In this document: positions 298 to 13,130 of the stretch, piece by piece
How positions within the stretch are numbered: the first letter of the stretch is position 1
Layout: every line of letters begins with the position of its first letter
Origin: a virus
DNA: 33,340 bases
Direction: 5' to 3' (one strand)
Virus record (IMG/VR): IMGVR_UViG_3300013132_003902
Span: 1-33,340 of that record
Made by a program: the position numbers and the translations under genes
Notes under the pieces: generated by a model
Told to the model about the DNA's origin: nothing
Databases searched by the model: none
Seen by the model: only the letters and a program-made list of their open reading frames with translations

Positions 298-324
298 AAA
301 AAAAAAGGCTTTCGCCCTTTTTTT
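298..324 (-). terminator. Rho-independent terminator closing the glycan island
   Basis: On the minus strand this reads A7-GGGC-GAAA-GCC-T9. It forms a GC stem capped by a GAAA tetraloop and extended by A-T pairs and one G-T wobble, and it ends in a T run. It overlaps the stop codon of the glycosyltransferase gene at 323-1531. The flanking A and T runs could also let it work in the plus direction. Confidence 0.75.
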
Positions 325-1531
325 ATTTTCTCTCTTTAAATTTCTTCTTTTTTATATTATTTTCATTTATTGGTATATTATTTTCTTTCATTTTTATTTG
401 AAAGGCTGTCTGTTGACGTTGAATTTGTTCCAATATATGCATATATTGTTGCATATTGCTTTGAATTCTAGAAATTTCTGATTTTGGTACTTTATTTTCT
501 ACTAATAGTTTTTTACATGTCTCATAACCCAAATCAAACTGTCCTACTGCGTGTGCTGTTGCGGCTAATTCATCTAAAATGGCATAATTATATATCATAT
601 CAGGAACAAATAATATATCATCCTTTGGGAATGGAATTTCAGATGCTGCTTTAGCAAACATATAAGCAACTGCTGGTAGATTGAATTTTGTACGATATAT
701 TTGAGCAATATGATATAATGGCTCGGCACGAATAGGTCTTGAGTTATATGCCAGAAGGAATGCTTCCATAATTTCACCCCAAGGGCGATTTAGCATGGCC
801 TTGGCAACAGCAATACGGTAAAGGGAATAATATACCTCTTCACCCCATCCACCTTTCTCAGCCCTTCTCATATAGGCTTCAACTGCCTTTTCCCATTGCT
901 GTGAATCAAAGTATGATTGTCCCAGATAAAATATATACCTGATATTATCTGGTTCGTCTATTAAAGCTTTTTCAAGTGTCTCTGCATCTTTTGAATATTT
1001 CTCAATGGCCGTAATTCCAACATTTCTTGCACCAACTGTACGGGCCACGACACGATAATTTCCTTCAAGTTTCATTATCAATGGTTGTTCTTTTCCACGA
1101 CAATGAGCATATTCATGCAATATGCCAACATATTCCCAATCTGAGTCTACTTTGAATATTTGATTTCTCCACCAAGAGAATTCCTCTCGTCCAAGACGAA
1201 GTGCAAAGGAATCAATTTGATTTCCTGGTGGTAATTTAAATTCCCCCTGAACATAATCATCAGCATCAATCATGTAGGCATATTCTGCCTTACCTTTACA
1301 AAGATCTAATGCTTCTGTTCTTGATTTACCAAATCCTTTCCATTCTTGTTGGTGAAGTTCTCCTGGAATACCTTTTTCGGCAAAGAAGTTCTTGATGATA
1401 TCTTGAGTTCCATCTGTAGATCCAGTATCCACCACTACCCAATAATCAATCATTTTGTAAACTGAATTAAGACACTCAAGAATCACATGTGATTCATTTT
1501 TTACAATCATTGCCAACGAAAGTCTATGCAT
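323..1531 (-). CDS. Family 2 glycosyltransferase with TPR-like C-terminal region
   Basis: Predicted sugar transferase of 402 residues. The N-terminus shows a GT2-type GT-A fold: LSLAMIVKNE at the first strand, VVDTGSTDGT near residue 35 (nucleotide binding) and MIDADDYV near residue 90 (the DxD-type metal site). From about residue 175 onward, helical repeats with YLGQSYFDSQQWEKAVEAY-type spacing resemble tetratricopeptide repeats. The GT2-TPR combination is common in bacterial and phage glycan loci and is also seen in protein glycosyltransferases. The C-terminus is Lys-rich. A TATAAATA motif and an AAAGGA ribosome binding site precede the ATG. It is the last gene of the island and is directly followed by a terminator. 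Donor and acceptor are unknown. Confidence 0.85.
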   Translation of the reverse strand: MHRLSLAMIVKNESHVILECLNSVYKMIDYWVVVDTGSTDGTQDIIKNFFAEKGIPGELHQQEWKGFGKSRTEALDLCKGKAEYAYMIDADDYVQGEFKLPPGNQIDSFALRLGREEFSWWRNQIFKVDSDWEYVGILHEYAHCRGKEQPLIMKLEGNYRVVARTVGARNVGITAIEKYSKDAETLEKALIDEPDNIRYIFYLGQSYFDSQQWEKAVEAYMRRAEKGGWGEEVYYSLYRIAVAKAMLNRPWGEIMEAFLLAYNSRPIRAEPLYHIAQIYRTKFNLPAVAYMFAKAASEIPFPKDDILFVPDMIYNYAILDELAATAHAVGQFDLGYETCKKLLVENKVPKSEISRIQSNMQQYMHILEQIQRQQTAFQIKMKENNIPINENNIKKKKFKERK

Positions 1532-1549
1532 TATATAAATCCTTTATAC

Positions 1550-1557
1550 TATTTATA
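1550..1557 (-). promoter_or_regulatory. Candidate T4-type late promoter
   Basis: The minus strand reads GTATAAATAG, a full match to the T4 late box TATAAATA. A start about six bases downstream would leave a leader of about 12 bases containing AAAGGA before the ATG at 1531. The box overlaps the TAA stop of the upstream RfbH-like gene. Confidence 0.55.
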
Positions 1558-2896
1558 CTCTAAAATTATCTGCTTTAATAAAATAAGCATCAACAACAGA
1601 TTCAATATAATCTAATTGTTCATCAGTAATAACTGGACTGGTTCCCAAGAAAAATGTGTCAGTAGTTACTTTAGTAGATACTGGGAAATCTTTCTTTGCA
1701 TCGCCAGAATAAACTCCATCATATGCTGGTTGTAGTAGAACATTTCCACCAAAATAATTTCTTGTTTGTATCTTATTATCTTCAAGATACATTGTGAATT
1801 GATTTCTCTTAATGCTAATATCATCTCTTATAGTAAGGGGGAATGCAAACCAGGAAGGATCTGACTTTACTGTTGCCTTTGGTAAAATAAAGATTTTATC
1901 GTATTTAGAAAATATTGAATAAAGGCGATTAAAGTTCTTTTTACGAATTTCAATAATCGTATCAAGCTTTTTTAGTTGAACTAATCCAATTGCTGCTTGC
2001 ATTTCAATAGGTTTTAGATTATATCCAATCTCTTCATAAACATACTTGTGATCGAAAATTTCATCAGGAAATGCTGGAAGCCAATTACTAAATCGTTTTC
2101 TACACATTCCATCCTTTAAACAAGATGCACCTTTACCTGAGCAATAGCATCCTCTGCCCCATTCTCGTAAACTTTTAATAACTGTTTCTTGTTCATCAGT
2201 TTTACAAGCAACAAAACCACCCTCACCCATAGTTATATGATGTGCTGGATAAAATGAGCATGACGAAAATTGTCCAAAAGAACCAAGATATTTTCCATCA
2301 TATTTACTTCCAAGAGCATCGCAACAATCTTCTAATAAAATAAGATTATATTTATTTACGATCTCCATTAAACGATCCATATTTGGTGGATTACCCAAAA
2401 CATGTGCAAACACAAGAACTTTAGCACCTTGTTTTGCTGCCTCTTCTACTTGATCAAGATTAAGATTAAGAGTATCAAGTTCAATATCAACAAATACTGG
2501 AATAAATCCATTTTGTAAAATAGGATTAATTGTTGTTGGAAATCCTGCTGCTGGTGTTATTATTTTTGTTCCAATCGGAAGATTATAAAGTCGTTTTGAC
2601 TTTAATGCACTAATCATAAGAAGATTAGCACTTGATCCACTATTGGTTAAAGCACCATATTCCTTACCCAAATATGATTTAAATTGTCTTTCAAATCTAA
2701 GACCATTTTCTCCGAGCACCCACCATCCATTTAAAACGGATTCAATGGCAGCAAAAAATTCATCATCATCAAAAAAGTCACCAGAATATTGAACATAATC
2801 TTTACCAGATGTCCAAGTCTTTTTTTCTGTTCTTTTTAATTGAATTAATTCAAGAATTTTAGTTTTTACTAAATCATTATTTGTTAATTTTATCAT
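1553..2896 (-). CDS. rfbH: RfbH/E1-like CDP-4-keto-6-deoxyglucose 3-dehydrase (DegT/DnrJ/EryC1 superfamily)
   Basis: 447 residues, the usual length of E1 (RfbH/AscC/DdhC). These PMP-dependent iron-sulfur enzymes remove the C3 hydroxyl of CDP-4-keto-6-deoxyglucose on the way to 3,6-dideoxysugars. The aspartate that contacts the cofactor is in ILLEDCCDALGS (D190). Where ordinary aminotransferases have the PLP lysine, this protein reads SFYPAHHITMGEGG (H219/H220), the hallmark His replacement of E1. Cys250, Cys252, Cys259 and Cys265 lie just after it and are the likely [2Fe-2S] ligands. The start overlaps the upstream SDR gene by 20 bases. No E3 reductase or CDP-glucose-forming enzyme is seen in the window, so the substrate would have to come from the host or from genes outside it. 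Confidence 0.88.
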   Translation of the reverse strand: MIKLTNNDLVKTKILELIQLKRTEKKTWTSGKDYVQYSGDFFDDDEFFAAIESVLNGWWVLGENGLRFERQFKSYLGKEYGALTNSGSSANLLMISALKSKRLYNLPIGTKIITPAAGFPTTINPILQNGFIPVFVDIELDTLNLNLDQVEEAAKQGAKVLVFAHVLGNPPNMDRLMEIVNKYNLILLEDCCDALGSKYDGKYLGSFGQFSSCSFYPAHHITMGEGGFVACKTDEQETVIKSLREWGRGCYCSGKGASCLKDGMCRKRFSNWLPAFPDEIFDHKYVYEEIGYNLKPIEMQAAIGLVQLKKLDTIIEIRKKNFNRLYSIFSKYDKIFILPKATVKSDPSWFAFPLTIRDDISIKRNQFTMYLEDNKIQTRNYFGGNVLLQPAYDGVYSGDAKKDFPVSTKVTTDTFFLGTSPVITDEQLDYIESVVDAYFIKADNFRV

Positions 2897-3668
2897 AATT
2901 TAAATCTTTTAGTTGATTATAAGTATTTATAATCCCTAAATCAAGTCCTATTTCTTCTATATTGATATCATGTGAATTACCACAATAAAATTGCAAATCA
3001 TTATTATTTTCTATAATAATTGGAACTTTATATTCTGATAAAGAATTTATTTTTTCTGCTATTGATTTTAATGTATATTTTTGTTCATATGAACAATTTA
3101 TATTCTTAGGACCATCATTTTGAATATAATGATCTACTAAAGTTACTAAATCATTCATATAATAAAAATCCATTATTTTATTTGAATGAATAATAATTGG
3201 TTCTTTTTTAATATAACGAATTATATTTGATTTAATAAATCTTGTTGATAATTCATTATGGTCAAATACACCAAATATTCTTAAATTATACCAATTATGA
3301 ACATTATTAATCATTTCATTAATAGCATTTTTACTTATACCATATGGTGTATTATTTTGAAATATTTCTGCACCAGAACCAAATGATATTAATTTTTTAA
3401 ATGAATTTTTGTTATCATATAAATTATAAATCATTTTAAGATTTTGATAAACGGTATCTTTATTGTCTTTTTTTAATCTACTACCACCAATCACGGCGGT
3501 ATGTATAACAATATCAAAAAATTTATTTTCAAAAAATTCTTTAGTTGATGAAGAATCGCTTAGATCGAATTCATTTCTTGTAACATTTGAAATATTATGT
3601 TTAATAATTAAATTATTTTTTATACTTTGTGCGATATATCCATTACCACCAGTTATCAAGACATTCAT
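2877..3668 (-). CDS. NAD(P)-dependent epimerase/reductase, extended SDR type
   Basis: 263 residues. The N-terminus has the Rossmann glycine pattern ITGGNGYIAQSI (residues 5-16). DIVIHTAVIGG near residue 55 marks strand 4, and YGISK near residue 110 carries the Tyr-x-x-x-Lys catalytic pair; an upstream Ser (SFGSG) fits the third member. Such enzymes epimerise or reduce keto-sugar nucleotides. Next to an E1-like dehydrase and a thiamine-diphosphate enzyme, a likely task is reduction of a keto group on the modified sugar, as YerF does in yersiniose synthesis, but this is inference. ATG and the upstream stop share ATGA, implying translational coupling with the methyltransferase gene. The base composition is very AT-rich. 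Confidence 0.8.
   Translation of the reverse strand: MNVLITGGNGYIAQSIKNNLIIKHNISNVTRNEFDLSDSSSTKEFFENKFFDIVIHTAVIGGSRLKKDNKDTVYQNLKMIYNLYDNKNSFKKLISFGSGAEIFQNNTPYGISKNAINEMINNVHNWYNLRIFGVFDHNELSTRFIKSNIIRYIKKEPIIIHSNKIMDFYYMNDLVTLVDHYIQNDGPKNINCSYEQKYTLKSIAEKINSLSEYKVPIIIENNNDLQFYCGNSHDINIEEIGLDLGIINTYNQLKDLNYDKINK
2924..2931 (-). promoter_or_regulatory. Candidate late promoter inside the SDR gene
   Basis: TATAAATACTTA on the minus strand matches the T4 late box. It lies 28 bases upstream of the ATG of the RfbH-like gene and inside the 3' end of the SDR gene. It could boost late expression of the last two island genes. The surrounding sequence is AT-rich, so chance is possible. Confidence 0.35.
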
Positions 3669-4423
3669 TGTTTTTTCCTGAAGACTGCAATATAGTTAAT
3701 TTCATTTGGATCAAGTACTATTTCTAGTAATTCAAAATTATCGTTTATATCTTTATTTTGCTGATCATTCAAGAAACTTGAATATATAATATTTGTTTTT
3801 TCTGCTAATAGTAATTCTTCACCTAATAACGAATTATCATATTTATACCAACCTCTTGATTTTAGAGAATTTTGTATATCTTCCATAAAATATAAACCGT
3901 CTTTTTCCAATAGATCTATTGATTGCCATAAGCTAATCATCATATGATTCGGCCAATGACTACCATCTTCTATTATAAATTTATATTTCACATTTAATTT
4001 TTTAATATCAGACCAATCATTAAAATTACCCTGATCTGCATAGATAAAATTTATAGATTTATTATTTAACTCTTTTATTTCATCTAATTTATCTGATAAA
4101 TTATTTCCCCAAAAATTATCAACACAATATAAATTTATATTTTTGAAATAAGTCATCCACATTTTAGCTGATGCATATGGAAATCGTTTATCACAAACAC
4201 CAATTTCCAACATATTAAATTGCCTGTCTCTATATGATGACATATATTTATCATAGACTTTTGTGTAATGCATACAAAAGTGAGATGGATAATTATTACC
4301 CCATGTTAATGTTTTTTTATCGGCTGTTCCCTTATCTGTTTCGTAATGATTAGCAATTTCATTTAAATTTTTATCAGCATTATAAAAATTATTTACACTA
4401 GATTGTTTTTTAAAAAATTTCAT
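3665..4423 (-). CDS. Class I SAM-dependent methyltransferase
   Basis: 252 residues. NMLEIGVCDK near residue 70 is the SAM-binding motif I, followed by LYCVDNFWG as the acidic end of strand 2. FIIEDGSHWPNHM near residue 150 and LLEKDGLYFMEDI fit motifs IV-V of the MycE/TylF-like sugar and macrolide O-methyltransferases. The preceding ETDKGT stretch is also typical of that group. Methylation of a sugar hydroxyl is the natural role in this locus. The gene ends in an ATGA overlap with the SDR gene. An AAAGGA ribosome binding site precedes its ATG. Confidence 0.8.
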   Translation of the reverse strand: MKFFKKQSSVNNFYNADKNLNEIANHYETDKGTADKKTLTWGNNYPSHFCMHYTKVYDKYMSSYRDRQFNMLEIGVCDKRFPYASAKMWMTYFKNINLYCVDNFWGNNLSDKLDEIKELNNKSINFIYADQGNFNDWSDIKKLNVKYKFIIEDGSHWPNHMMISLWQSIDLLEKDGLYFMEDIQNSLKSRGWYKYDNSLLGEELLLAEKTNIIYSSFLNDQQNKDINDNFELLEIVLDPNEINYIAVFRKKQ

Positions 4424-4432
4424 TAATATCCT

Positions 4433-6178
4433 TTATAAATTAAAAACGTCAGAAATATACATATCAGTCAATTCACCAGGAATAATTTTTCCATTTTTAT
4501 CTATACCCTTGTGAACTACTTTTGGTTCATGTTTTTCGTATGGATATGAAAATAATTCACAAATCAATGGTCCATTATAATTAAATACATCATTCAATAC
4601 GTCATCTATTTGATTATTATCTATAATTGAAAAATATTTAATACCATACGCATCACTTATTTTTGATAAATTTGGAAAGCTAATTCCGCTATCTGGACCG
4701 GAAGCAATCTCTTTTCCATTAAAAAAAGTTTCTTGAGTTATTTTAATAGACAAATATCCTTCATTATTTATAACAAATATTTTAATAGGAAGATTGTGAT
4801 GAATTATTGTTTGTAATTCTTGTATATTCATTTGTAAACTTCCGTCACCTTCCATACAAATAACAGGATTTTTATTATTCGCAAAACAAGCACCAATTGC
4901 AGCTGGTAAACCATATCCCATACTAGCACAACCAACATTAGTAAAACATATTTGATCTTTTTTTAGATTATACGTTTGTAGTGTAACAACATGTGCTGTG
5001 CCATCACTTGTTATAATTGGATGTAAATTGGCGTAATTTTTTAATTTATTAATAAAATAATAAACACTAACATATCCTTTCATTTTTTCGTGTTTTGGAT
5101 AATAGTATATTTGTTGTTTTCTAGTTTCTTTTACAAAACATCTCCATTCATCAATATTGATCTTATAATCTTCTTTACAAACTGTTTCAATAAAGGTATT
5201 TACATCAGAATTTATAGCCAGATCTATTGGAAATTTATGTTTATAAATTTCGGACGAATCTATATCTACTTGTATTTTTTTAGAATTTGGAGAAAAACCT
5301 TTAAAATTGTATCCAGTCATTTTAACATTTAATCTACTGCCTAAAATAATTAGTAGATCAGCTTCCTGTACAATTTTATTTGATGTCAATTGTCCTAAAA
5401 TACCTATTCTACCAGAATATAATTCATATTCATTATCAACTGAATCAATTCCACTATGAACACCAGTAACTACAGGAATTTTATATTTTTTTATAAAATT
5501 ATCCAATATTTTTATACTATTAGATATACGAATTCCGTTACCAGCAACAATTAATGGTTTTTTAGAATTTTCCAATAATAATTTAAAATTATTTAATATA
5601 GTTTCATCTATTGTATCGATTTTAATTAAATTTTGATATTTTTTCAAATCATCAATATCAATTTCAGCACCTTGAAAATCTAAAGGTATATCAATCCAAA
5701 CTGGTCCTGGTCTACCAGTAATTGCTATTCTATATGCTTTTTCCAATTCATATAGAATATCTTTTGGATTTTTTAACATTACAGCATATTTGGTCATAGG
5801 TTTTACTGAATCAATAATATTGAATTCTTGATCACCAATCTGGCGACAACCCGTTTCATCTCTAAGTTGATTCGAAGAAACTTGACCTGAAATAAAAATA
5901 GCAGGAATACTATCTAGCCAACATCCTAATACACCAGTCAATGTATTGGTTCCACCAGGTCCGGTGGTAACTATTGCAGCACTTAGGTTATTACTTAATC
6001 TAAAATAACCCTCAACAGCCATTGCTGCTGCTTGTTCATGGTGTGTGCAAATATATTTTAATTTATCAGATTTACCTAAAGAATCAATAAGATGTATACA
6101 ACCACCACCAGATACAGTAAATACATGTTTTATTTTTTTATTTTCTAAAAATTGTATTACTATATCAGATAATTTCAT
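4433..6178 (-). CDS. Thiamine-diphosphate enzyme, acetolactate synthase-like (YerE-like candidate)
   Basis: 581 residues with the three-domain layout of the acetolactate synthase family: N-terminal pyrimidine-binding domain with catalytic Glu48 (THHEQAAAMA), a central domain at about 200-340, and a C-terminal diphosphate-binding domain with GDGS at 445-448 and NN about 25 residues later. True acetolactate synthase would be odd inside a sugar cluster. The enzyme YerE belongs to this family and attaches a two-carbon unit from pyruvate to a 3,6-dideoxy-4-keto-hexose, the step after E1. The E1-like gene is in the same operon, so a branched-chain sugar is a reasonable hypothesis. It overlaps the HAD gene by 14 bases. 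Confidence 0.85.
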   Translation of the reverse strand: MKLSDIVIQFLENKKIKHVFTVSGGGCIHLIDSLGKSDKLKYICTHHEQAAAMAVEGYFRLSNNLSAAIVTTGPGGTNTLTGVLGCWLDSIPAIFISGQVSSNQLRDETGCRQIGDQEFNIIDSVKPMTKYAVMLKNPKDILYELEKAYRIAITGRPGPVWIDIPLDFQGAEIDIDDLKKYQNLIKIDTIDETILNNFKLLLENSKKPLIVAGNGIRISNSIKILDNFIKKYKIPVVTGVHSGIDSVDNEYELYSGRIGILGQLTSNKIVQEADLLIILGSRLNVKMTGYNFKGFSPNSKKIQVDIDSSEIYKHKFPIDLAINSDVNTFIETVCKEDYKINIDEWRCFVKETRKQQIYYYPKHEKMKGYVSVYYFINKLKNYANLHPIITSDGTAHVVTLQTYNLKKDQICFTNVGCASMGYGLPAAIGACFANNKNPVICMEGDGSLQMNIQELQTIIHHNLPIKIFVINNEGYLSIKITQETFFNGKEIASGPDSGISFPNLSKISDAYGIKYFSIIDNNQIDDVLNDVFNYNGPLICELFSYPYEKHEPKVVHKGIDKNGKIIPGELTDMYISDVFNL

Positions 6179-6563
6179 TTGTAAAATTCTTTATATCAAT
6201 TAATGCTTGATTCCAATTATGAAATCGAATAGCCTTATCGTCAATATAACATATACATCTTGGTTTTTCAGCAGTAACTTCAGAAATATATTGTTTAATA
6301 TTATATTTTTCAAGCCATTCCCATACTAATTGAGTTCCAGTTTTTCCATTAACTAATGGTCTATCTGCTTTTGCCTTTGCCGTAAATATGACTATCTTAT
6401 ATTTCTGGGATAATAATCTTAGCGATTCGATGGATCCCTCAATAGGACTACCATATATTGTTCCATCATGATATCCATATTCAAAACTATGAACAACTCC
6501 ATCAAAATCTACTGCTATTATTTTAGATTCGTCTTCCTTAATTGTATTTTTATAAGTCATCAT
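6165..6563 (-). CDS. Small HAD-family phosphatase
   Basis: 132 residues. IIAVDFDGVVHSF near the N-terminus gives the DxDG nucleophile motif, IVIFTAKAKAD supplies the motif II Thr, and CYIDDKAIRF supplies the acidic motif IV; a Lys before it (EKPRC) could serve motif III. There is no large cap domain, which suits phosphatases acting on small or exposed phosphates. It lies between an aldolase-like gene and the thiamine-diphosphate enzyme and starts in an ATGA overlap with the aldolase stop. The role may be removal of phosphate from a sugar intermediate; the substrate is unknown. Confidence 0.78.
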   Translation of the reverse strand: MMTYKNTIKEDESKIIAVDFDGVVHSFEYGYHDGTIYGSPIEGSIESLRLLSQKYKIVIFTAKAKADRPLVNGKTGTQLVWEWLEKYNIKQYISEVTAEKPRCICYIDDKAIRFHNWNQALIDIKNFTNEII

Positions 6564-7357
6564 ATAGCCATTGATTGATTGATTCTATCTTGAATCATTT
6601 TAATTCTTTTAATATCTTGATTTGCTAATTTTGTATAAAATTCATGTTTTGTTTGTAGCCATTCATATTCAAACAATTGACCTTTTGCTAAGGCTTTTGA
6701 TAAATTTTTAAGAGCAATGGATGAATCGTATATTGCATATCTTGTCTCAAACTTATCAAGTAAGCCATCAGAATGTAATTTTTTCAAAAATTCTAAAGAA
6801 TCAATAGATATTGCTCCACCTAAACACAACTTAAGACCTTTTTCTTTAATCTTACAAAATACTGTTTTTGTCATATTATATACTTCATCACTATTTACAT
6901 ATGATCTATCTTTTCCCATAGAGGATACTAAATCAACTCTGCCGATAGTAATTCCGTATAATTTATTAATTTCCTGCGTATTTAGCATTTTATCTATATT
7001 ATTTACGGCAGTTATTGTTTCTACATTAATATTCAAATTAATACCAGAAATAACATCTTCTGGAATGTATGATGTGGATGCTTGAATAAATTTCTTTAAT
7101 CCAAATTCAGATTCTACCATTGGTGCAACAATGCCTTTAACACCAATAATTAGAGAATCTTTAATATCCCTTATAGCTTCGGGTCCACCAATTTTTAATG
7201 TTAATTTTGTATTAGATTGATTACATAATTCTTTAAGACGTACAGTTTCATTGAATAACGCACCTTCATCTTCGAAGGATGTTTTTATGCCTATCAAACC
7301 ATGATTTTCTATCATATCTGTAAGTAATTTTACACATTTAAATTCTCTGCTGTTCAT
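6560..7357 (-). CDS. HpcH/HpaI-type aldolase (citrate lyase/aldolase TIM barrel)
   Basis: 265 residues. The pattern LKIGGPEAIRDI, then KGIVAPMVESEFGL, then LNINVETITAVNNIDKM and ITIGRVDLVSSMG matches the class II HpcH/HpaI aldolases, which use a Glu and an Asp (here in VETI and GRVDL) to hold a metal and condense pyruvate with an aldehyde. In a glycan locus such an enzyme could build or split a keto-acid sugar or sugar side chain. The following HAD gene overlaps it by 4 bases, so the two may act in sequence. AAAGGAAA precedes the ATG. The actual substrate cannot be read from the sequence. Confidence 0.78.
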   Translation of the reverse strand: MNSREFKCVKLLTDMIENHGLIGIKTSFEDEGALFNETVRLKELCNQSNTKLTLKIGGPEAIRDIKDSLIIGVKGIVAPMVESEFGLKKFIQASTSYIPEDVISGINLNINVETITAVNNIDKMLNTQEINKLYGITIGRVDLVSSMGKDRSYVNSDEVYNMTKTVFCKIKEKGLKLCLGGAISIDSLEFLKKLHSDGLLDKFETRYAIYDSSIALKNLSKALAKGQLFEYEWLQTKHEFYTKLANQDIKRIKMIQDRINQSMAI

Positions 7358-7369
7358 ATTATATTTCCT

Positions 7370-8323
7370 TTACCATATAAATTTATTTTGATAATATCGT
7401 ACTATATTTTTAATTTCAATAGAAAAATTCTTTTTAGGAAACCAACCTAATTTTTTTAACTTAGTATCGTCAAGTGAATATCTTACATCTTGTCCTACTC
7501 TATTGCAAGAAAAATCTACAAAATCTTCAATATTATTATTTGAAATATTATAATGATATAAAATATTTTTAATTGTTTCCAAATTACTTTGTTCAAATCC
7601 ACCACATATATTATAAATTTCATTTTTTACACCAGAATCTATAATAGTAATCACAGCATCAGCTGTGTCTTCTGAATGTAGCCAATTTCTTATAGGCGTT
7701 CCATTATTATGGAGTGGAATTTTTTTACCTAGATTAATATATTTACATGCTTTTGGTATTAATTTTTCAATATATTGACCTACACCATAATTATTTGTAG
7801 GTCTTAATATAACATATGGTATGTTGTATGTTCTTGACCAAGCAAGTATCAACATATCTGCTGCTGCTTTTGTTGCAGAGTATGGATTTGATGGTTTAAG
7901 TAAATCAGTTTCGGTGTGGGAACCTTCAACAATATCTCCATAAACTTCATCCGTGCTAAAATGTAGAAGCACTGGTGTTTTTGAGCTTTCTTGTCTATAA
8001 TTCTTAATCAATTTTAGTAAATTGTGAACGCCATCTATATTTGATTTTATAAAATCGTCACTATCCGCAATTGAATTTCCAACATGTGTTTCTGCGGCGG
8101 TATTAATAATATAATCACAATCATATAAAAATTTTAAATCATTTATATCGCAATGTACAAATGAAAAATTATTATAATTATTAAACTCATTTAAAAGTTC
8201 TTTATTGGCAGCATATGTTATTTTATCTACGCCTTTTACATACCACCCTTTTTGTAAACATGCTCGCGTAATATAAGACCCAATAAAACCTAAGCATCCT
8301 GTAATATATACAACTTTTTTCAT
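7370..8323 (-). CDS. RmlB-like nucleotide-sugar 4,6-dehydratase
   Basis: 317 residues. Extended SDR with ITGCLGFIGSYI (NAD-binding glycines, residues 8-19), AAETHVGNSI, the catalytic STDEVYG (Thr-Asp-Glu) near residue 125 and YSATKAAAD (Tyr-x-x-x-Lys) near 148, then RPTNNYGVGQYIEKLIP and a RNWLHSEDTADA segment. These are the signatures of dTDP-glucose 4,6-dehydratase (RmlB). That enzyme makes the 4-keto-6-deoxy sugar required by later deoxysugar enzymes. It is somewhat shorter than typical RmlB. A CDP- or UDP-sugar substrate cannot be excluded, and CDP-glucose would fit the E1-like enzyme better. No RmlA, RmlC or RmlD partner is present. Confidence 0.85.
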   Translation of the reverse strand: MKKVVYITGCLGFIGSYITRACLQKGWYVKGVDKITYAANKELLNEFNNYNNFSFVHCDINDLKFLYDCDYIINTAAETHVGNSIADSDDFIKSNIDGVHNLLKLIKNYRQESSKTPVLLHFSTDEVYGDIVEGSHTETDLLKPSNPYSATKAAADMLILAWSRTYNIPYVILRPTNNYGVGQYIEKLIPKACKYINLGKKIPLHNNGTPIRNWLHSEDTADAVITIIDSGVKNEIYNICGGFEQSNLETIKNILYHYNISNNNIEDFVDFSCNRVGQDVRYSLDDTKLKKLGWFPKKNFSIEIKNIVRYYQNKFIW

Positions 8324-8336
8324 TTTATAAACTCTA

Positions 8337-9215
8337 TTAATTTTGTTTTATAGCTATCCAATCACTTGGAAAATAATTACCATTTAAATATTCAATATCT
8401 GGGCGTTTATCATTTACATAATTATATGGACAAATAACTTTTCTATCCTTATTTGTGTTCAAATAAGCTGCCATCCATGGAAAACTACTATTAGATATTA
8501 TATTATGATTACAAATACTCATTAAAGATAATTGTTGAAATTTATCTAATCCTTCAACATAAACTGCGTTATCTATTTTGAAATTTTCTTTAACCCAAGA
8601 CATACCACTATCCCCAAATGCAGCCCCAGAAAAAATTAAATATTTTATTTTTTTATCTGGTATTAATTCTTTTATTTTTTCAACTGCTTTATAAAAATAT
8701 TCCAATGAAAGATTTAAAGATGCTAACTGCAAATAATCTCCTCTTCTAAATGAAATAGATACAGTTATTTCGTCATTATAAACATTTTTATTTAAAAAAT
8801 TTAAAGAGTGTTCTATATATTCTTGTTTAAATGTAAATAATTTTTTTAAATCATCTATATTTTGATGATAATACTTATAAAGTCCAACATCTCCATCAAT
8901 AATGTAGTTTTTTTTATTATCTAATTTAAATAAATTTAAATCTATAGGACTTAATTTATTATTATTTTTTGGCTCTACATAAACAAATTGTTTATCTTTT
9001 AATTCTTCAGCAGATATTAACTTTGGTTTATTTACAAATGGAATATCTAAACAATAATTGTAAGCACCATTATATAAAGTTCCATATAAATATTCTTTCA
9101 CAAATACTAATTCAAGACCACACGATTTTGCTATTGAGTATAGTCCTGCATATTGTGCCATTTGAGATGCAAATCCACAGCAAATTGGTATGTTTAATTT
9201 TGTTAGATATCCCAT
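8337..9215 (-). CDS. GT11-like alpha-1,2-fucosyltransferase
   Basis: 292 residues. SISFRRGDYLQL near residue 155 matches the HxRRGDY donor-binding motif of the GT11 alpha-1,2-fucosyltransferases, with Ser-Phe in place of the usual His. YLIFSGAAFGDSGMSWVKENF and CNHNIISNSSFPWMAAYLN match the later GT11 motifs. The N-terminal CGFASQMAQYAGLYSIAKSCG replaces the classical GGLGNQ(L/M)FQYA start. Transfer of fucose or a similar deoxysugar from GDP-sugar onto a glycan is expected. A long A-run with AAAAGGAAAA precedes the ATG. The gene is among the most AT-rich of the window. Confidence 0.82.
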   Translation of the reverse strand: MGYLTKLNIPICCGFASQMAQYAGLYSIAKSCGLELVFVKEYLYGTLYNGAYNYCLDIPFVNKPKLISAEELKDKQFVYVEPKNNNKLSPIDLNLFKLDNKKNYIIDGDVGLYKYYHQNIDDLKKLFTFKQEYIEHSLNFLNKNVYNDEITVSISFRRGDYLQLASLNLSLEYFYKAVEKIKELIPDKKIKYLIFSGAAFGDSGMSWVKENFKIDNAVYVEGLDKFQQLSLMSICNHNIISNSSFPWMAAYLNTNKDRKVICPYNYVNDKRPDIEYLNGNYFPSDWIAIKQN

Positions 9216-9230
9216 ATATTTTCCTTTTTT

Positions 9231-9929
9231 TTATAAATAATTTTTAAAATAAGTATTTAAAATTCGTTTTCGATGAATATTTGATGCTCCAGTTAAATGA
9301 CATATAAAAGAATTTGTATTCCAGTGATATGGTATATCTGCTCTAGTTGCCCATTGTTCTGCATACATCTCTTTTGATGGTGCTGCATTTAAATAATCAT
9401 GGTCAAGTATTTTCATCATACTTTTTAATGGAGTATTAAAATATAAATAATTCATGGCTACTTGTTCATTTTCCAATTTACCATTTAAACTATAAAGTGC
9501 ATTTAAAAAATTATTCGTATTATGATTTTTAATAAACAAAAAATTTCCACCACTGATGCTGTATCTACCATTCCAATCATATGATGCGTAAAATGTAATA
9601 TTTTCTTCTAAAGGAAAATTTTCTATTTTTATATCATTATTAGTTATTATTGAATCAGCATCAACCCATAAAACAATATCATAATATTTCAACATATCAG
9701 CTGATCTGGATACTCTCAAAAAACCCATATTTGATTCTTTGAAATTTTTTTCTTTATCCTCACCAAAATCTTGTATAGTTAATAAATCATAACCATGTTT
9801 ATTAACGTATCTTTGTTTTGATGGAAGTGTCATATCTGAAATTTCTTTTATTGTCAAATCTCCGGATGAATAGTATGCATCTAAAGATTGTTTTCCATAT
9901 CCAGTAACAATTAAAATTCGTTTATTCAT
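9231..9929 (-). CDS. GT-A glycosyltransferase, GT34 (GMA12/MNN10)-like
   Basis: 232 residues. IVLWVDADSIITN near residue 85 is a DxD metal-binding site. YSISGGNFLFIKN and NEQVAMNYLYFN, then a late Trp/His-rich region (HWNTNSFICHLTG), match the layout of galactosyl transferases of the GMA12/MNN10 type. The start overlaps the upstream GT2 gene by 8 bases. It probably adds one residue to the glycan made by this island. Family assignment is by motif only, and a GT8-type assignment is the main alternative. Confidence 0.7.
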   Translation of the reverse strand: MNKRILIVTGYGKQSLDAYYSSGDLTIKEISDMTLPSKQRYVNKHGYDLLTIQDFGEDKEKNFKESNMGFLRVSRSADMLKYYDIVLWVDADSIITNNDIKIENFPLEENITFYASYDWNGRYSISGGNFLFIKNHNTNNFLNALYSLNGKLENEQVAMNYLYFNTPLKSMMKILDHDYLNAAPSKEMYAEQWATRADIPYHWNTNSFICHLTGASNIHRKRILNTYFKNYL

Positions 9930-10764
9930 GTATATTCATTCCCCAATCATTCAAATTTGGTATATTGTATTTTTTTACATTATCTTTTATATAATTAATT
10001 TTATAATTATTTTTTAAATTTTGATTTTCATATATTTTTTCATCTATTTTTAGTGGAAATTCAAAATTTTCATATTGCCAATCAAAATTATTCACGGAAG
10101 CATCATATGCAGTAGAAGGTAGTACATCTATACTAAAATTTTTGTTTAAAACATAGTCTTGTATTTTCCAAAAATATTGTTTTATTGCTACTGTTTTTTT
10201 ATCTAACCACTGAAGGTGAGCTATGAATAAATAGGGAACAGGTATAACTGCTTGTTTTTCTGGTACTGGAAGATGTTCTGAGTGTTTTTGTATATTTTTA
10301 AAAAATACTGGTTTATTATAAGAACCCAATCTATCTTTTAAATTATATTTCCACGGTCCATCAACTCTGATTTTATTTTTTGATGTATATTGAATCCACT
10401 GTAAATGAATCATAATATCTTTATTATTATCTAAAATATTATTAAGTTCATTTTTACTTAATGTACCATCTAAATATTCATCAGTATCTAAACATATTAT
10501 TTTATTGCTATATTTTTTTGCTTCATCAAATAATTTTTGTCTTATATTTGATTCAATTTGTGTTGTTAGATTACTCTCATTAACACCACTATCTAAAATA
10601 GATAAAATATTAAACTTATCTTTATTTTCAGTTAAATATTCTAACGTCCCATCATCACATCGATCTAACATAAAAACAAAAGCATCGGCATATTTTTGCC
10701 ACTGAGGCATCATTTCTTTGATAAGAAATAATTCATTTCGTGTAATAGTAATTTGTACAATCAT
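9922..10764 (-). CDS. GT2-like glycosyltransferase
   Basis: 280 residues. It begins MIVQITITRNE, then FVFMLDRCDDGTLEYL takes the place of the usual DDGSxDGT, and IICLDTDEYLDG near residue 93 provides the metal-binding acid pair. The C-terminal half with PVFFKN and HLQWLDKKT is typical of distant GT2 proteins in phage and bacterial glycan loci. GGAG precedes the ATG, and the upstream GT10 gene overlaps by 4 bases. Specificity is unknown. Confidence 0.75.
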   Translation of the reverse strand: MIVQITITRNELFLIKEMMPQWQKYADAFVFMLDRCDDGTLEYLTENKDKFNILSILDSGVNESNLTTQIESNIRQKLFDEAKKYSNKIICLDTDEYLDGTLSKNELNNILDNNKDIMIHLQWIQYTSKNKIRVDGPWKYNLKDRLGSYNKPVFFKNIQKHSEHLPVPEKQAVIPVPYLFIAHLQWLDKKTVAIKQYFWKIQDYVLNKNFSIDVLPSTAYDASVNNFDWQYENFEFPLKIDEKIYENQNLKNNYKINYIKDNVKKYNIPNLNDWGMNIHE

Positions 10765-11597
10765 TTAATCTCCAATATTCTTTCAAAAATATTTTTACAA
10801 TATTTTTTTGCTTCCTCAAAGTTTTTATTAATCTTTTCAATATTATTGTTATAATATTCTTCAGTAAAATTAAAATTTATTAAATCTTCTACTGTAAGCC
10901 AGTAACTAGTATCAAAAAAATCAGATACATTCGGACAACCCCAATAAACTGGTATTGTCTTAGTTATTAAACAATCAATAAGTTTTTCAGTTATATAATT
11001 TTTTTCTTGTGTACTTTCAATAGAAATTGAGTACATACTCTTAAATAAATTTATTTTGTCATCATTTGGTAATGTTGGAAACCCTGGAATAATAAATCTG
11101 GTAGAACTATAGAACTTCTTAGCAACGTTAATTCTATTTTGATTCTGGAATATAATATGTCGTAGATTATATCCAGGTTTTCCTGATAATGATCCGCATA
11201 CCATAGACAGACTAAGATCTTTATCTAATTGTCTAAGACTTTCTGTATATTTTCCAAATGAGTCTGGGTGATGATTTGATTTGTTAAGCCATGTAGTTCC
11301 ATAAAGCATAAATCTAGCATTAGAACATTCATTTAATATTTTTTCATTTGATGTTATGATTTTATCATATGCTTTATGGTGTAGAATTATATGATCTACT
11401 GGCTCTACCCATCTTGATGTGGTTGGTTCATTTACATGACAAAAAATCTTATATGAATCTTTATTTACAAAATTAGGAATACCACTAGGATATTGATTTT
11501 TACCAAATCTTGTAAAGTGTATTTCTGTTTCCTGATCAACTTCTGGAATTTCATTGTCAGGAAACATATAGTCTGCATTTAAAATAATAGGTTTCAC
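10761..11597 (-). CDS. GT10 fucosyltransferase-like protein (copy 1)
   Basis: 278 residues. The diagnostic segment is ISIESTQEKNYITEKLIDC followed by TIPVYWGCPNVSDFF, the donor-binding block of alpha-1,3/1,4-fucosyltransferases of family GT10. It starts with GTG, in a GTGA overlap with the stop of the upstream gene. The N-terminal half carries an FCHVNEPT segment and is poorly conserved, as usual in this family because it binds the acceptor. It is paralogous in fold to the gene at 12288-13130 but diverged, which suggests a different acceptor or linkage. Confidence 0.8.
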   Translation of the reverse strand: MKPIILNADYMFPDNEIPEVDQETEIHFTRFGKNQYPSGIPNFVNKDSYKIFCHVNEPTTSRWVEPVDHIILHHKAYDKIITSNEKILNECSNARFMLYGTTWLNKSNHHPDSFGKYTESLRQLDKDLSLSMVCGSLSGKPGYNLRHIIFQNQNRINVAKKFYSSTRFIIPGFPTLPNDDKINLFKSMYSISIESTQEKNYITEKLIDCLITKTIPVYWGCPNVSDFFDTSYWLTVEDLINFNFTEEYYNNNIEKINKNFEEAKKYCKNIFERILEIK

Positions 11598-12277
11598 TGA
11601 TTCACCAAAAATTTATTTCCAGGACTTTGGAATTTAATATTATGTTCATCGAATCCCATGTTTCTCAGCACTTGCTCTTTTGAGTCTCCATCAGCAAGTC
11701 CCATAGTAATCATAGGCTCTCCCCCATGTACAGTAATACCAGGCCAAACACAGTAAGCATTTCCTAAGAATGCCATACGAACGCCTGTATTTTCTTGTAT
11801 CATCTTCATAAAGATCTTTAACAATACTTCATGATCGAATGCTACATTTGCTTGTTTTTCTAAAGTTTCACTTGCTTCAATCCATGCATAGATAAATTCA
11901 TATGCTTTCGGAGTCTGATTCAGATAAATTGGTGATGCCTTTGGCATACCAATACTCTGATCTTCTTGTGTTGGTACTTTAGGAAAGGCCATAGCCAAAT
12001 CAACCTTATCCGAAAACTCATCAAATACATCAAGTTTCTTATGAACCAATGAATCAACATCCAACCAAACTAATGGTGTACGTATTTCATTCATCATTTC
12101 AAGAATGAATCTTGGCTTTGATAAGCAGTTTGAACGATATGAGCCTTTAGATGGTTTATGGCGTATAATATTAGGAACGCCAAGATCATCAAGATTTTTC
12201 TTCAATCTTGAAGCATGATCGCTGTAATAGGAACGACCATCCACATCAGCATAAAAAGAAATCACAGGTGTCTTCAT
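11594..12277 (-). CDS. GT-A nucleotide-sugar transferase of unassigned family
   Basis: 227 residues. TPLVWLDVDSLVHKKL near residue 68 is a clear DxD site. SKPRFILEMM before it and FDHEVLLKIFM further on fit nucleotide-diphospho-sugar transferases with a GT-A fold, similar to GT77-like or anonymous phage enzymes. Base composition is visibly less AT-rich than in the genes that follow it, suggesting a separate origin. A TATAAATACTAG late-promoter motif lies only 7 bases before the ATG and there is no Shine-Dalgarno. Confidence 0.7.
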   Translation of the reverse strand: MKTPVISFYADVDGRSYYSDHASRLKKNLDDLGVPNIIRHKPSKGSYRSNCLSKPRFILEMMNEIRTPLVWLDVDSLVHKKLDVFDEFSDKVDLAMAFPKVPTQEDQSIGMPKASPIYLNQTPKAYEFIYAWIEASETLEKQANVAFDHEVLLKIFMKMIQENTGVRMAFLGNAYCVWPGITVHGGEPMITMGLADGDSKEQVLRNMGFDEHNIKFQSPGNKFLVNQ

Positions 12278-12284
12278 GGTCTAG

Positions 12285-12292
12285 TATTTATA
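12285..12292 (-). promoter_or_regulatory. Candidate T4-type late promoter next to start codon
   Basis: TATAAATACTAG on the minus strand matches the extended T4 late consensus. It overlaps the stop codon of the upstream GT10 gene. The predicted start would leave only about two bases before the ATG at 12277. Confidence 0.5.
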
Positions 12293-13130
12293 ATTGTTTT
12301 ATCATGTGGTAGAGAACATCATCAGCATTCTCTAATTTATTCACACGATCAAAGTTATGTTTGATTGCATCTATTTTACTATAATATAATTCTTCAGTCA
12401 ATTGTGATGGATCAAATGAAGAATTCAACGTAATTATTCCATCTGAATTAAAATAATTACCAATGTCAGGAGTACCCCAATAAATCGGTATTACTCCTGT
12501 AGCAAAACAATCAGTTAATTTTTCTGTAAAATAAGTTGGATATTTATCATTTTCGATGACAATTGAGAACATATATGGATTTAATGCCTTACTTTTATCA
12601 CCCCATGGACGTTTTTCGTATCCAAATCTAGGTGAACCTAATACACCTCCATATAAATCTACTTTGTCTTTCCAATTTTCAGCTAAAGTATGGCGAATCT
12701 GATGTCCAATAGTAGATTTTTTAGGAGATGCTATAAGTGAGACTAATTTATTCTTTTCAAAGATTTGCCTATCTTCTATCCAAGGTAAGTTACTGCCAGC
12801 AAATGAGAAATGAATTTTTTTATTTTTAGTACAAAACGACCTATCAGAAAAATAAACAGCATCATAATTATTACAAATATGCTCAAGATGTTGTTCAAAG
12901 ATATCTTTAGGAAAGTAAAATTCATAAAATATTGCCCTTGATTCACAAATCCATGCTATCTTTTTTTCACCAGGCTTTTTTACGTAATTTATTCCATGCG
13001 AAATAGCTGCATCTATAAAAACTTTTATACTGCTATCTTCTTTAGTCCACGAAAATAGTTTAGGTTTTTTATCAGAACACGAAGACTGATCCGTATCAAA
13101 CGGTGCTCCAATCGCTTGCATTATATCCAT
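12288..13130 (-). CDS. GT10 fucosyltransferase-like protein (copy 2)
   Basis: 280 residues. FSIVIENDKYPTYFTEKLTDC, followed by VIPIYWGTPDIGNYF, is the GT10 signature. KKIAWICESRA and AVYFSDRSF mark the N-terminal domain. It is the first gene of the glycan island after RegA. ATG at 13130 is used here; a second ATG three codons later is possible, and neither has a strong ribosome binding site. It is expected to move fucose or a related 6-deoxysugar onto an acceptor glycan. Confidence 0.82.
   Translation of the reverse strand: MDIMQAIGAPFDTDQSSCSDKKPKLFSWTKEDSSIKVFIDAAISHGINYVKKPGEKKIAWICESRAIFYEFYFPKDIFEQHLEHICNNYDAVYFSDRSFCTKNKKIHFSFAGSNLPWIEDRQIFEKNKLVSLIASPKKSTIGHQIRHTLAENWKDKVDLYGGVLGSPRFGYEKRPWGDKSKALNPYMFSIVIENDKYPTYFTEKLTDCFATGVIPIYWGTPDIGNYFNSDGIITLNSSFDPSQLTEELYYSKIDAIKHNFDRVNKLENADDVLYHMIKQL

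Follow-up and report, generated by a model that had tools for sequence, protein, structure and literature searches.

We analyzed a 33,340-nt stretch of viral DNA (IMG/VR record IMGVR_UViG_3300013132_003902, positions 1 to 33,340; hereafter, the window) carrying an operon that very likely encodes a pathway for a C-branched deoxysugar. Such sugars occur in some O-antigens of bacteria and in some antibiotics. Genes for a T4-type major head protein, portal, terminase and tail sheath identify the 33.3-kb record as a virus, with a portal protein at most 51% identical to those of cyanophages and pelagiphages. The operon occupies the minus strand from position 13130 down to 323, after regA/clamp-loader genes, and its gene ends mostly overlap or sit close together. 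It comprises 5-6 glycosyltransferase-like genes, followed by RmlB, HpcH, a haloacid dehalogenase (HAD)-type gene, a thiamine diphosphate (ThDP) enzyme, a methyltransferase, a short-chain dehydrogenase/reductase (SDR), RfbH and a family GT2 glycosyltransferase. The genes between the glycosyltransferases are:

1553-2896, minus strand, 447 aa: RfbH/E1-like nucleoside diphosphate (NDP)-4-keto-6-deoxyglucose 3-dehydrase, a pyridoxamine phosphate (PMP) enzyme with His220 and the [2Fe-2S] Cys set
2877-3668, minus strand, 263 aa: SDR of the extended type that probably reduces the acyl branch, with a putative YerF-like role
3665-4423, minus strand, 252 aa: sugar O-methyltransferase-like protein, a relative of TylE and MycE
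4433-6178, minus strand, 581 aa: YerE-like ThDP-dependent carboligase (C-branching enzyme)
6165-6563, minus strand: small HAD phosphatase-like protein, putative part of a donor cassette
6560-7357, minus strand: HpcH/HpaI-type class II pyruvate aldolase-like protein, proposed to make a 4-hydroxy-2-oxo acid donor
7370-8323, minus strand: RmlB-type NDP-glucose 4,6-dehydratase, probably acting on dTDP-glucose

An initial annotation restricted to positions 1553-6178 had proposed a branched-chain dideoxysugar pathway with a reductase-like SDR, both of which are supported here. The RmlB, HpcH and HAD genes lie just upstream of that interval and were overlooked there, and their presence in the operon changed the interpretation. 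We consider it probable that the phage encodes a pathway for a C4-branched 3,6-dideoxysugar made from host NDP-glucose, most likely dTDP-glucose.

The product of 1553-2896 scores above the cut-off of the NCBIfam RfbH model (NF011936; 483 bits, cut-off 423), and its best match in the PDB is Yersinia E1 (3bcx, E=3e-108). Two features pointed out in the initial annotation were borne out. First, H219-H220, in FYPAHHITMGEGG, aligns with the His pair of E1, in which His replaces the pyridoxal phosphate (PLP) lysine, and is invariant in 133 of 133 distinct viral RfbH homologues of at least 50% identity. Second, its clustered cysteines (191/192, 250, 252 and 265) align with C193, C251, C253 and C261 of E1, the E1 positions being counted on the RfbH-E1 alignment; compared with E1, the loop contains an extra Cys259 and about 5 inserted residues. 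In a set of 45 viral records, the longest of 358 kb, neither the NAD-binding domain typical of the E3 partner reductase (PF00175) nor a ferredoxin-type Fer2 domain (PF00111) was found. RfbH must therefore depend on the host for electrons. The 3-dehydrase SpnQ uses ferredoxin/flavodoxin reductase pairs in place of E3 (PMC8987622). In some other clusters (L006:7674-8816, L010, L049 and L052), RfbH is replaced by a 380-aa DegT enzyme with the motif SHVITAGG and His at the Lys position, lacking the Cys set, which is possibly a ColD-like dehydrase needing no iron-sulphur reductase.

The ThDP enzyme is intact, with full TPP_enzyme N, M and C domains, the catalytic Glu48 and a GDG motif at 444-446. 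Its closest solved structure is that of JanthE (8rph), a YerE-like enzyme (PMC12188165), both in a search with the single sequence (375 bits versus 278 for the next structure) and with the family profile (612 versus 511 bits). The initial annotation had placed this protein in the YerE family and proposed a phylogeny of YerE versus IlvB. In an approximate FastTree tree of 104 rows, the window enzyme falls with JanthE into a 73-row clade (support 100), anchored by JanthE alone, without YerE or ErwE sequences, and 13 IlvB rows form a separate clade; the clustering with IlvB that would have spoken against the assignment did not occur. The acceptor Trp of acetohydroxyacid synthase (AHAS; W574 in Arabidopsis) is present in 26 of 35 IlvB rows and in none of 77 viral rows, and is replaced by Thr in both the window enzyme and JanthE. 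Conversely, the JanthE hot-spot Y297/K567 is kept as Y290/K553 in the window, and IlvB has a gap and Met at these positions.

Could the protein instead be an auxiliary acetolactate synthase serving the synthesis of branched-chain amino acids? Its best NCBIfam model is indeed acolac_lg, with 352 bits, under the cut-off of 538. However, the tree placement and the absent acceptor Trp led us to reject the IlvB/AHAS identity, and the operon context and the ranking of PDB matches, with JanthE far above AHAS, likewise make this explanation very improbable. AHAS Arg377 was dropped as a diagnostic residue, as many YerE-like rows retain Arg. By analogy with its relatives, the enzyme is expected to ligate an acyl unit to a keto-sugar.

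Among isolate phage records, no match to the ThDP enzyme exceeded 33% identity, the best being 32%. Isolate phages were set aside as a source of close relatives, since the listed matches look largely like bacterial ilv genes; the matching 'phage' records OR844999-OR851439 and AFYI/AGRM appear to hold such genes, that is, cellular DNA. In one viral locus (L071:10001-11735), the ThDP gene is split into three reading frames and the HpcH match is partial, reflecting either decay or assembly errors.

The SDR (PF01370, 5e-18) carries the motifs G..G..A and Y109xxxK113. Its AlphaFold2 (AF2) model has a predicted local distance difference test (pLDDT) score of 94 and the fold of NDP-sugar epimerases/4-ketoreductases (Z 25-27), which fails to tell a reductase from an epimerase. 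From the analogy with YerF, and from the presence of the SDR with all three carboligase types described below, we infer that it reduces the branch ketone. The methyltransferase gene, which the initial annotation had correctly placed in the same operon, adjoins the ThDP gene. TylE and MycE methylate macrolide sugars, and the best PDB matches of the window protein are demethylmacrocin O-methyltransferase 8ia9 (3.5e-8) and 3ssm (1.5e-7). It also contains EDGSH and ED motifs and matches the methyltransferase family phrog_21658.

To place the module in context, we surveyed loci holding relatives of these genes, 79 of them viral and about 46 from bacteria or archaea (L081-L126). Locus labels were BLAST-based and checked on representatives; note that these are metagenomic contigs, for which redundancy or mis-binning is possible (for example, L037 has TRAP-transporter-like genes). 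Separate scans anchored on HpcH, RfbH and RmlB were performed against the bias of ThDP-based selection, with anchors at least 95% identical removed and 4.5 kb needed on both sides. Around 51 non-redundant viral RmlB genes, there were 49 carboligases, 47 SDRs, 44 3-dehydrases and no RfbF; this set represents the closest relatives of the window RmlB, and the rates hold for that subfamily. Carboligases were near 28 of 35 non-redundant RfbH anchors. At the level of sequence, the enzyme families, their key residues, the conservation of the operon and the exclusion of the ThDP enzyme from the IlvB clade are established.

The bacterial clusters carry RfbF, RfbG, RfbH, ThDP and SDR genes (RfbF and RfbG each in 15 of 33 non-redundant loci), as exemplified by L098, with the order RfbF-RfbG-RfbH-HpcH-HAD-ThDP-SDR. 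In the viral loci, RmlB takes the place of RfbF and RfbG, which suggests a dTDP-sugar; it is found at 50% identity or more in 51 of 79. The window RmlB matches TIGR01181 with 299 bits (cut-off 365) and TIGR02622 with 66 bits, its best PDB matches are all dTDP-glucose 4,6-dehydratases, and it contains the motifs TDE124-126 and YSATK148. In a dehydratase tree, viral RmlB proteins fall on the RmlB side, away from 18 RfbG. The 'RfbG' BLAST labels in viral loci (22-28% identity) were rejected as generic SDR matches; L055 alone falls in the RfbG clade. No glucose-1-phosphate cytidylyltransferase above cut-off was found in the 45 viral records, and an NTP-transferase gave a strong match in one of them and weaker ones in two. 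With genes for a cytidylyltransferase, E3 and ferredoxin all missing from these records, NDP-glucose, like the electrons, must come from the host.

The initial annotation had stated that E3 and the CDP-glucose enzymes are missing; this holds for E3, RfbF and RfbG, but a 4,6-dehydratase, of the RmlB type, is present at 7370-8323. It had also proposed a CDP-linked sugar, in which case a host CDP-glucose 4,6-dehydratase would feed CDP-4-keto-6-deoxyglucose to RfbH, and RmlB would serve another sugar. RfbH does exceed the NF011936 cut-off, and CDP-glucose is the substrate in those bacterial clusters that contain RfbF and RfbG. Nevertheless, RmlB adjoins the module in 34 of 46 ThDP-anchored and lies near 29 of 35 RfbH-anchored non-redundant loci, and most viral RfbH proteins are 50-90% identical to that of the window, whereas the bacterial ones are 37-45% identical. 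Moreover, SpnQ demonstrates that Cys4 3-dehydrases are able to use dTDP sugars (PMC8987622). The CDP-linked version thus seems unlikely, and the position of the dehydratase on the RmlB side, together with the lack of a viral cytidylyltransferase above cut-off, makes dTDP the likely nucleotide.

The genes directly upstream of the ThDP gene bear on the nature of the branch. HpcH (PF03328, 1e-9) gave an AF2 model with a pLDDT of 96.6 and an HpaI/SbnG fold (Z ~19), and its metal-ligand positions Glu113/Asp142 are invariant in 35 homologues. HAD carries the motifs DFDG19, TAK61 and DD108 (phrog_1238, 1e-15), and in the mapped loci its relatives immediately precede a ThDP gene; a role on a phosphorylated aldehyde would fit, although this assignment is speculative. 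Across 89 non-redundant YerE-like viral loci, the corresponding position is occupied by exchangeable cassettes:

HpcH+SDRx+AroB-like: 27 loci
PanB: 18 loci
NeuB: 15 loci
DJ-1/cupin: 10 loci
MhpF+MhpE or related aldolase: 9 loci
HpcH+HAD (window type): 4 loci
other HpcH: 4 loci
no cassette recognized: 2 loci

Representative PanB, MhpF and MhpE proteins exceed their NCBIfam cut-offs, and NeuB exceeds that of Pfam. Four of these families yield 4-hydroxy-2-oxo acids: HpcH as a pyruvate aldolase, MhpE as a 4-hydroxy-2-oxovalerate aldolase, NeuB by condensing phosphoenolpyruvate and PanB by transferring a hydroxymethyl group to a 2-oxo acid. Such acids are the preferred donors of ErwE (PMC12247030), and the product of MhpE, 4-hydroxy-2-oxovalerate, is accepted by JanthE (PMC12188165). 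From this correspondence, we infer that the cassette beside the ThDP gene makes the donor of the ThDP enzyme, in which case the branch would probably be longer than the two carbons of yersiniose. The ThDP clade of JanthE contains MhpF/MhpE-linked enzymes, HpcH and NeuB exchange inside the window's own 16-row clade, and cassette type tracks the ThDP tree (11 changes versus 52 when shuffled).

Several cassettes deserve mention in their own right. The commonest consists of HpcH, a short-chain dehydrogenase and an AroB-related putative sugar-phosphate cyclase (TIGR04425) next to the ThDP gene (L049:7578-10014 and about 26 similar loci). ThDP genes preceded by a DJ-1/PfpI, cupin-like and HAD cassette (L014:8406-10001, L012, L034 and L077) form a distinct group, with 14 of 14 rows in one ThDP clade. 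In L298:11702-13564, phage genes for acetaldehyde dehydrogenase (acetylating) and 4-hydroxy-2-oxovalerate aldolase, which are typical of aromatic catabolism, adjoin the ThDP gene. Where 'HOA/MhpE' labels stand beside genuine IlvB genes (L127-L160), the enzymes are probably of the LeuA type, and these labels were left out as evidence.

The initial annotation had envisaged a yersiniose-type pathway, in which a two-carbon acetyl branch derived from pyruvate is added and reduced, and HpcH and HAD would serve something else. This scheme agrees with the YerE family placement of the ThDP enzyme, with the use of pyruvate by YpYerE (PMC12247030) and with an SDR that could be YerF-like. By contrast, the closest relatives have HpcH-HAD immediately upstream of ThDP, a ThDP gene is near 31 of 32 non-redundant viral HpcH genes, and NeuB, PanB or MhpF/MhpE occupy the HpcH-HAD place in other clades. 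Furthermore, the active-site position V121 of JanthE corresponds to Asp116 in the window (codon at 5831-5833), a candidate donor-specificity residue judging from its distribution: the position is Asp in 11 of 12 HpcH-type and 11 of 20 NeuB-type rows and Phe in 34 of 35 IlvB rows. RfbF was not found above cut-off in the viral records, and RmlB stands in for RfbG. A yersiniose-type branch therefore appears improbable, and, given that relatives carry other enzymes producing 4-hydroxy-2-oxo acids in place of the cassette, we favor a longer, hydroxylated branch whose donor is probably made by the aldolase rather than being pyruvate.

The position of the YerE-like enzyme is itself exchangeable. The carboligases of the 51 RmlB-anchored loci comprise 35 YerE-like enzymes, 9 split transketolases and 7 split E1-type enzymes, the split pairs consisting by Pfam of Transketolase_N + Transket_pyr and E1_dh + Transket_pyr, respectively, without a recognized C-terminal transketolase domain. 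The E1-type pairs measure 208+178 aa (PF00676/PF02779) and the transketolase-type pairs 206+158 aa (PF00456/PF02779); examples in the slot of the YerE-like enzyme are L074:8810-9979, L350:4014-5104 and L324:9945-11041. Seven of 121 RmlB loci were classified as 'other', and five of these have a ThDP gene upstream of RmlB (L024, L033, L034, L036 and L037). All three ThDP superfamilies make or are proposed to make branched sugars (PMC12247030). Their exchange in one place provides strong circumstantial evidence that this slot corresponds to the branching step.

In the pathway that we propose, including its substrates, order, nucleotide, donor and final glycan, RmlB would convert host NDP-glucose into NDP-4-keto-6-deoxyglucose, from which RfbH would remove the 3-OH with PMP, drawing electrons from ferredoxin-type proteins of the host. 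HpcH would join pyruvate and an aldehyde, which may carry a phosphate and be trimmed by HAD, into a 4-hydroxy-2-oxo acid; the YerE-like enzyme would decarboxylate this acid and put the acyl unit on C4 of the keto-sugar. The SDR may then reduce the branch ketone, followed by O-methylation by the methyltransferase, and the neighboring glycosyltransferases would attach the sugar to a glycan of the surface or the virion.

Several observations weigh against this pathway, beginning with the lack of a viral E3 or ferredoxin and the approximate nature of the FastTree phylogenies. The viral RmlB family scores under the TIGR01181 equivalog cut-off, leaving the nucleotide uncertain. HpcH is divergent, with a weak sequence match to HpaI (0.015) and with Lys55 about where HpaI has Arg70, as judged by eye in alignments. 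The agreement between cassette type and tree in part reflects the common descent of linked genes, and the DJ-1/cupin/HAD and HpcH/SDRx/AroB-like cassettes are without obvious donor chemistry.

The module is flanked by the following genes:

323-1531, minus strand: GT2 glycosyltransferase with a C-terminal extension, the final operon gene (PF00535, 2e-14; phrog_13126, 8e-28)
8337-9215, minus strand: GT11 (fucosyltransferase-like) glycosyltransferase of the same operon (PF01531, 5e-19)
9231-13130, minus strand: further glycosyltransferase-like genes (GT34-like, GT2-like, two GT10-like and one unassigned)

Relatives of the GT2 gene often adjoin RfbH/SDR, and several viral loci keep glycosyltransferase-like genes of the 9231-13130 type next to the module. 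The two GT10-like, one GT11 and one GT34-like genes preceding the module (8337-13130) suggest that the branched sugar enters a larger, possibly fucosylated glycan.

In the literature that we searched, neither a phage pathway for C-branched sugars nor a phage acetolactate synthase in this context is described. The nearest known systems are those of YpYerE (yersiniose), ErwE (erwiniose) and JanthE (PMC12247030, PMC12188165). The window ThDP enzyme belongs to the JanthE clade, its cluster likewise includes RfbH and SDR genes, and aldehyde-ketone coupling onto a 4-keto-3,6-dideoxysugar is expected. Unlike these systems, the window belongs to a T4-like virus, has RmlB for RfbF/RfbG, lacks E3 and carries a dedicated HpcH+HAD cassette; unlike YpYerE, its ThDP enzyme probably does not use pyruvate as donor. 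E1/RfbH (AscC) and SpnQ (PMC8987622) have the same His for the PLP Lys and the four [2Fe-2S] Cys, but the window protein comes from a virus without E3, its nucleotide may be dTDP, and its Cys loop has the insert and extra Cys. Enzymes like alpha-KADH2 and the split transketolases of aldgamycin, paulomycin and miharamycin synthesis (PMC12247030) fill the RmlB-SDR slot in related viruses, where the pairs are short, whereas the window has the YerE-like type. Cyanophage lipopolysaccharide clusters, such as that of Synechococcus phage S-B05 (MK799832), also combine a T4-like genome with DegT/RfbH-like and sugar SDR genes; however, the S-B05 RfbH is 42% identical to that of the window, and no ThDP gene is annotated near it.

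More broadly, the balance of evidence leans slightly toward a modular system in T4-like phages, with a constant core (RmlB, His-type 3-dehydrase and SDR), one slot for three ThDP types and an exchangeable donor cassette for the YerE-like type, which would yield diverse C-branched dTDP-linked deoxysugars that change cell-surface or virion glycans. The function of split transketolases as sugar-branching enzymes is still unproven according to a review (PMC12247030), and the exchange of three ThDP superfamilies in one viral locus offers independent support for it. The viral clusters also pair every YerE-like enzyme with a candidate enzyme for making its donor, so that donor specificity becomes testable and predictable from neighboring genes, and they are a source of many new enzymes that could serve as biocatalysts for tertiary alcohols.

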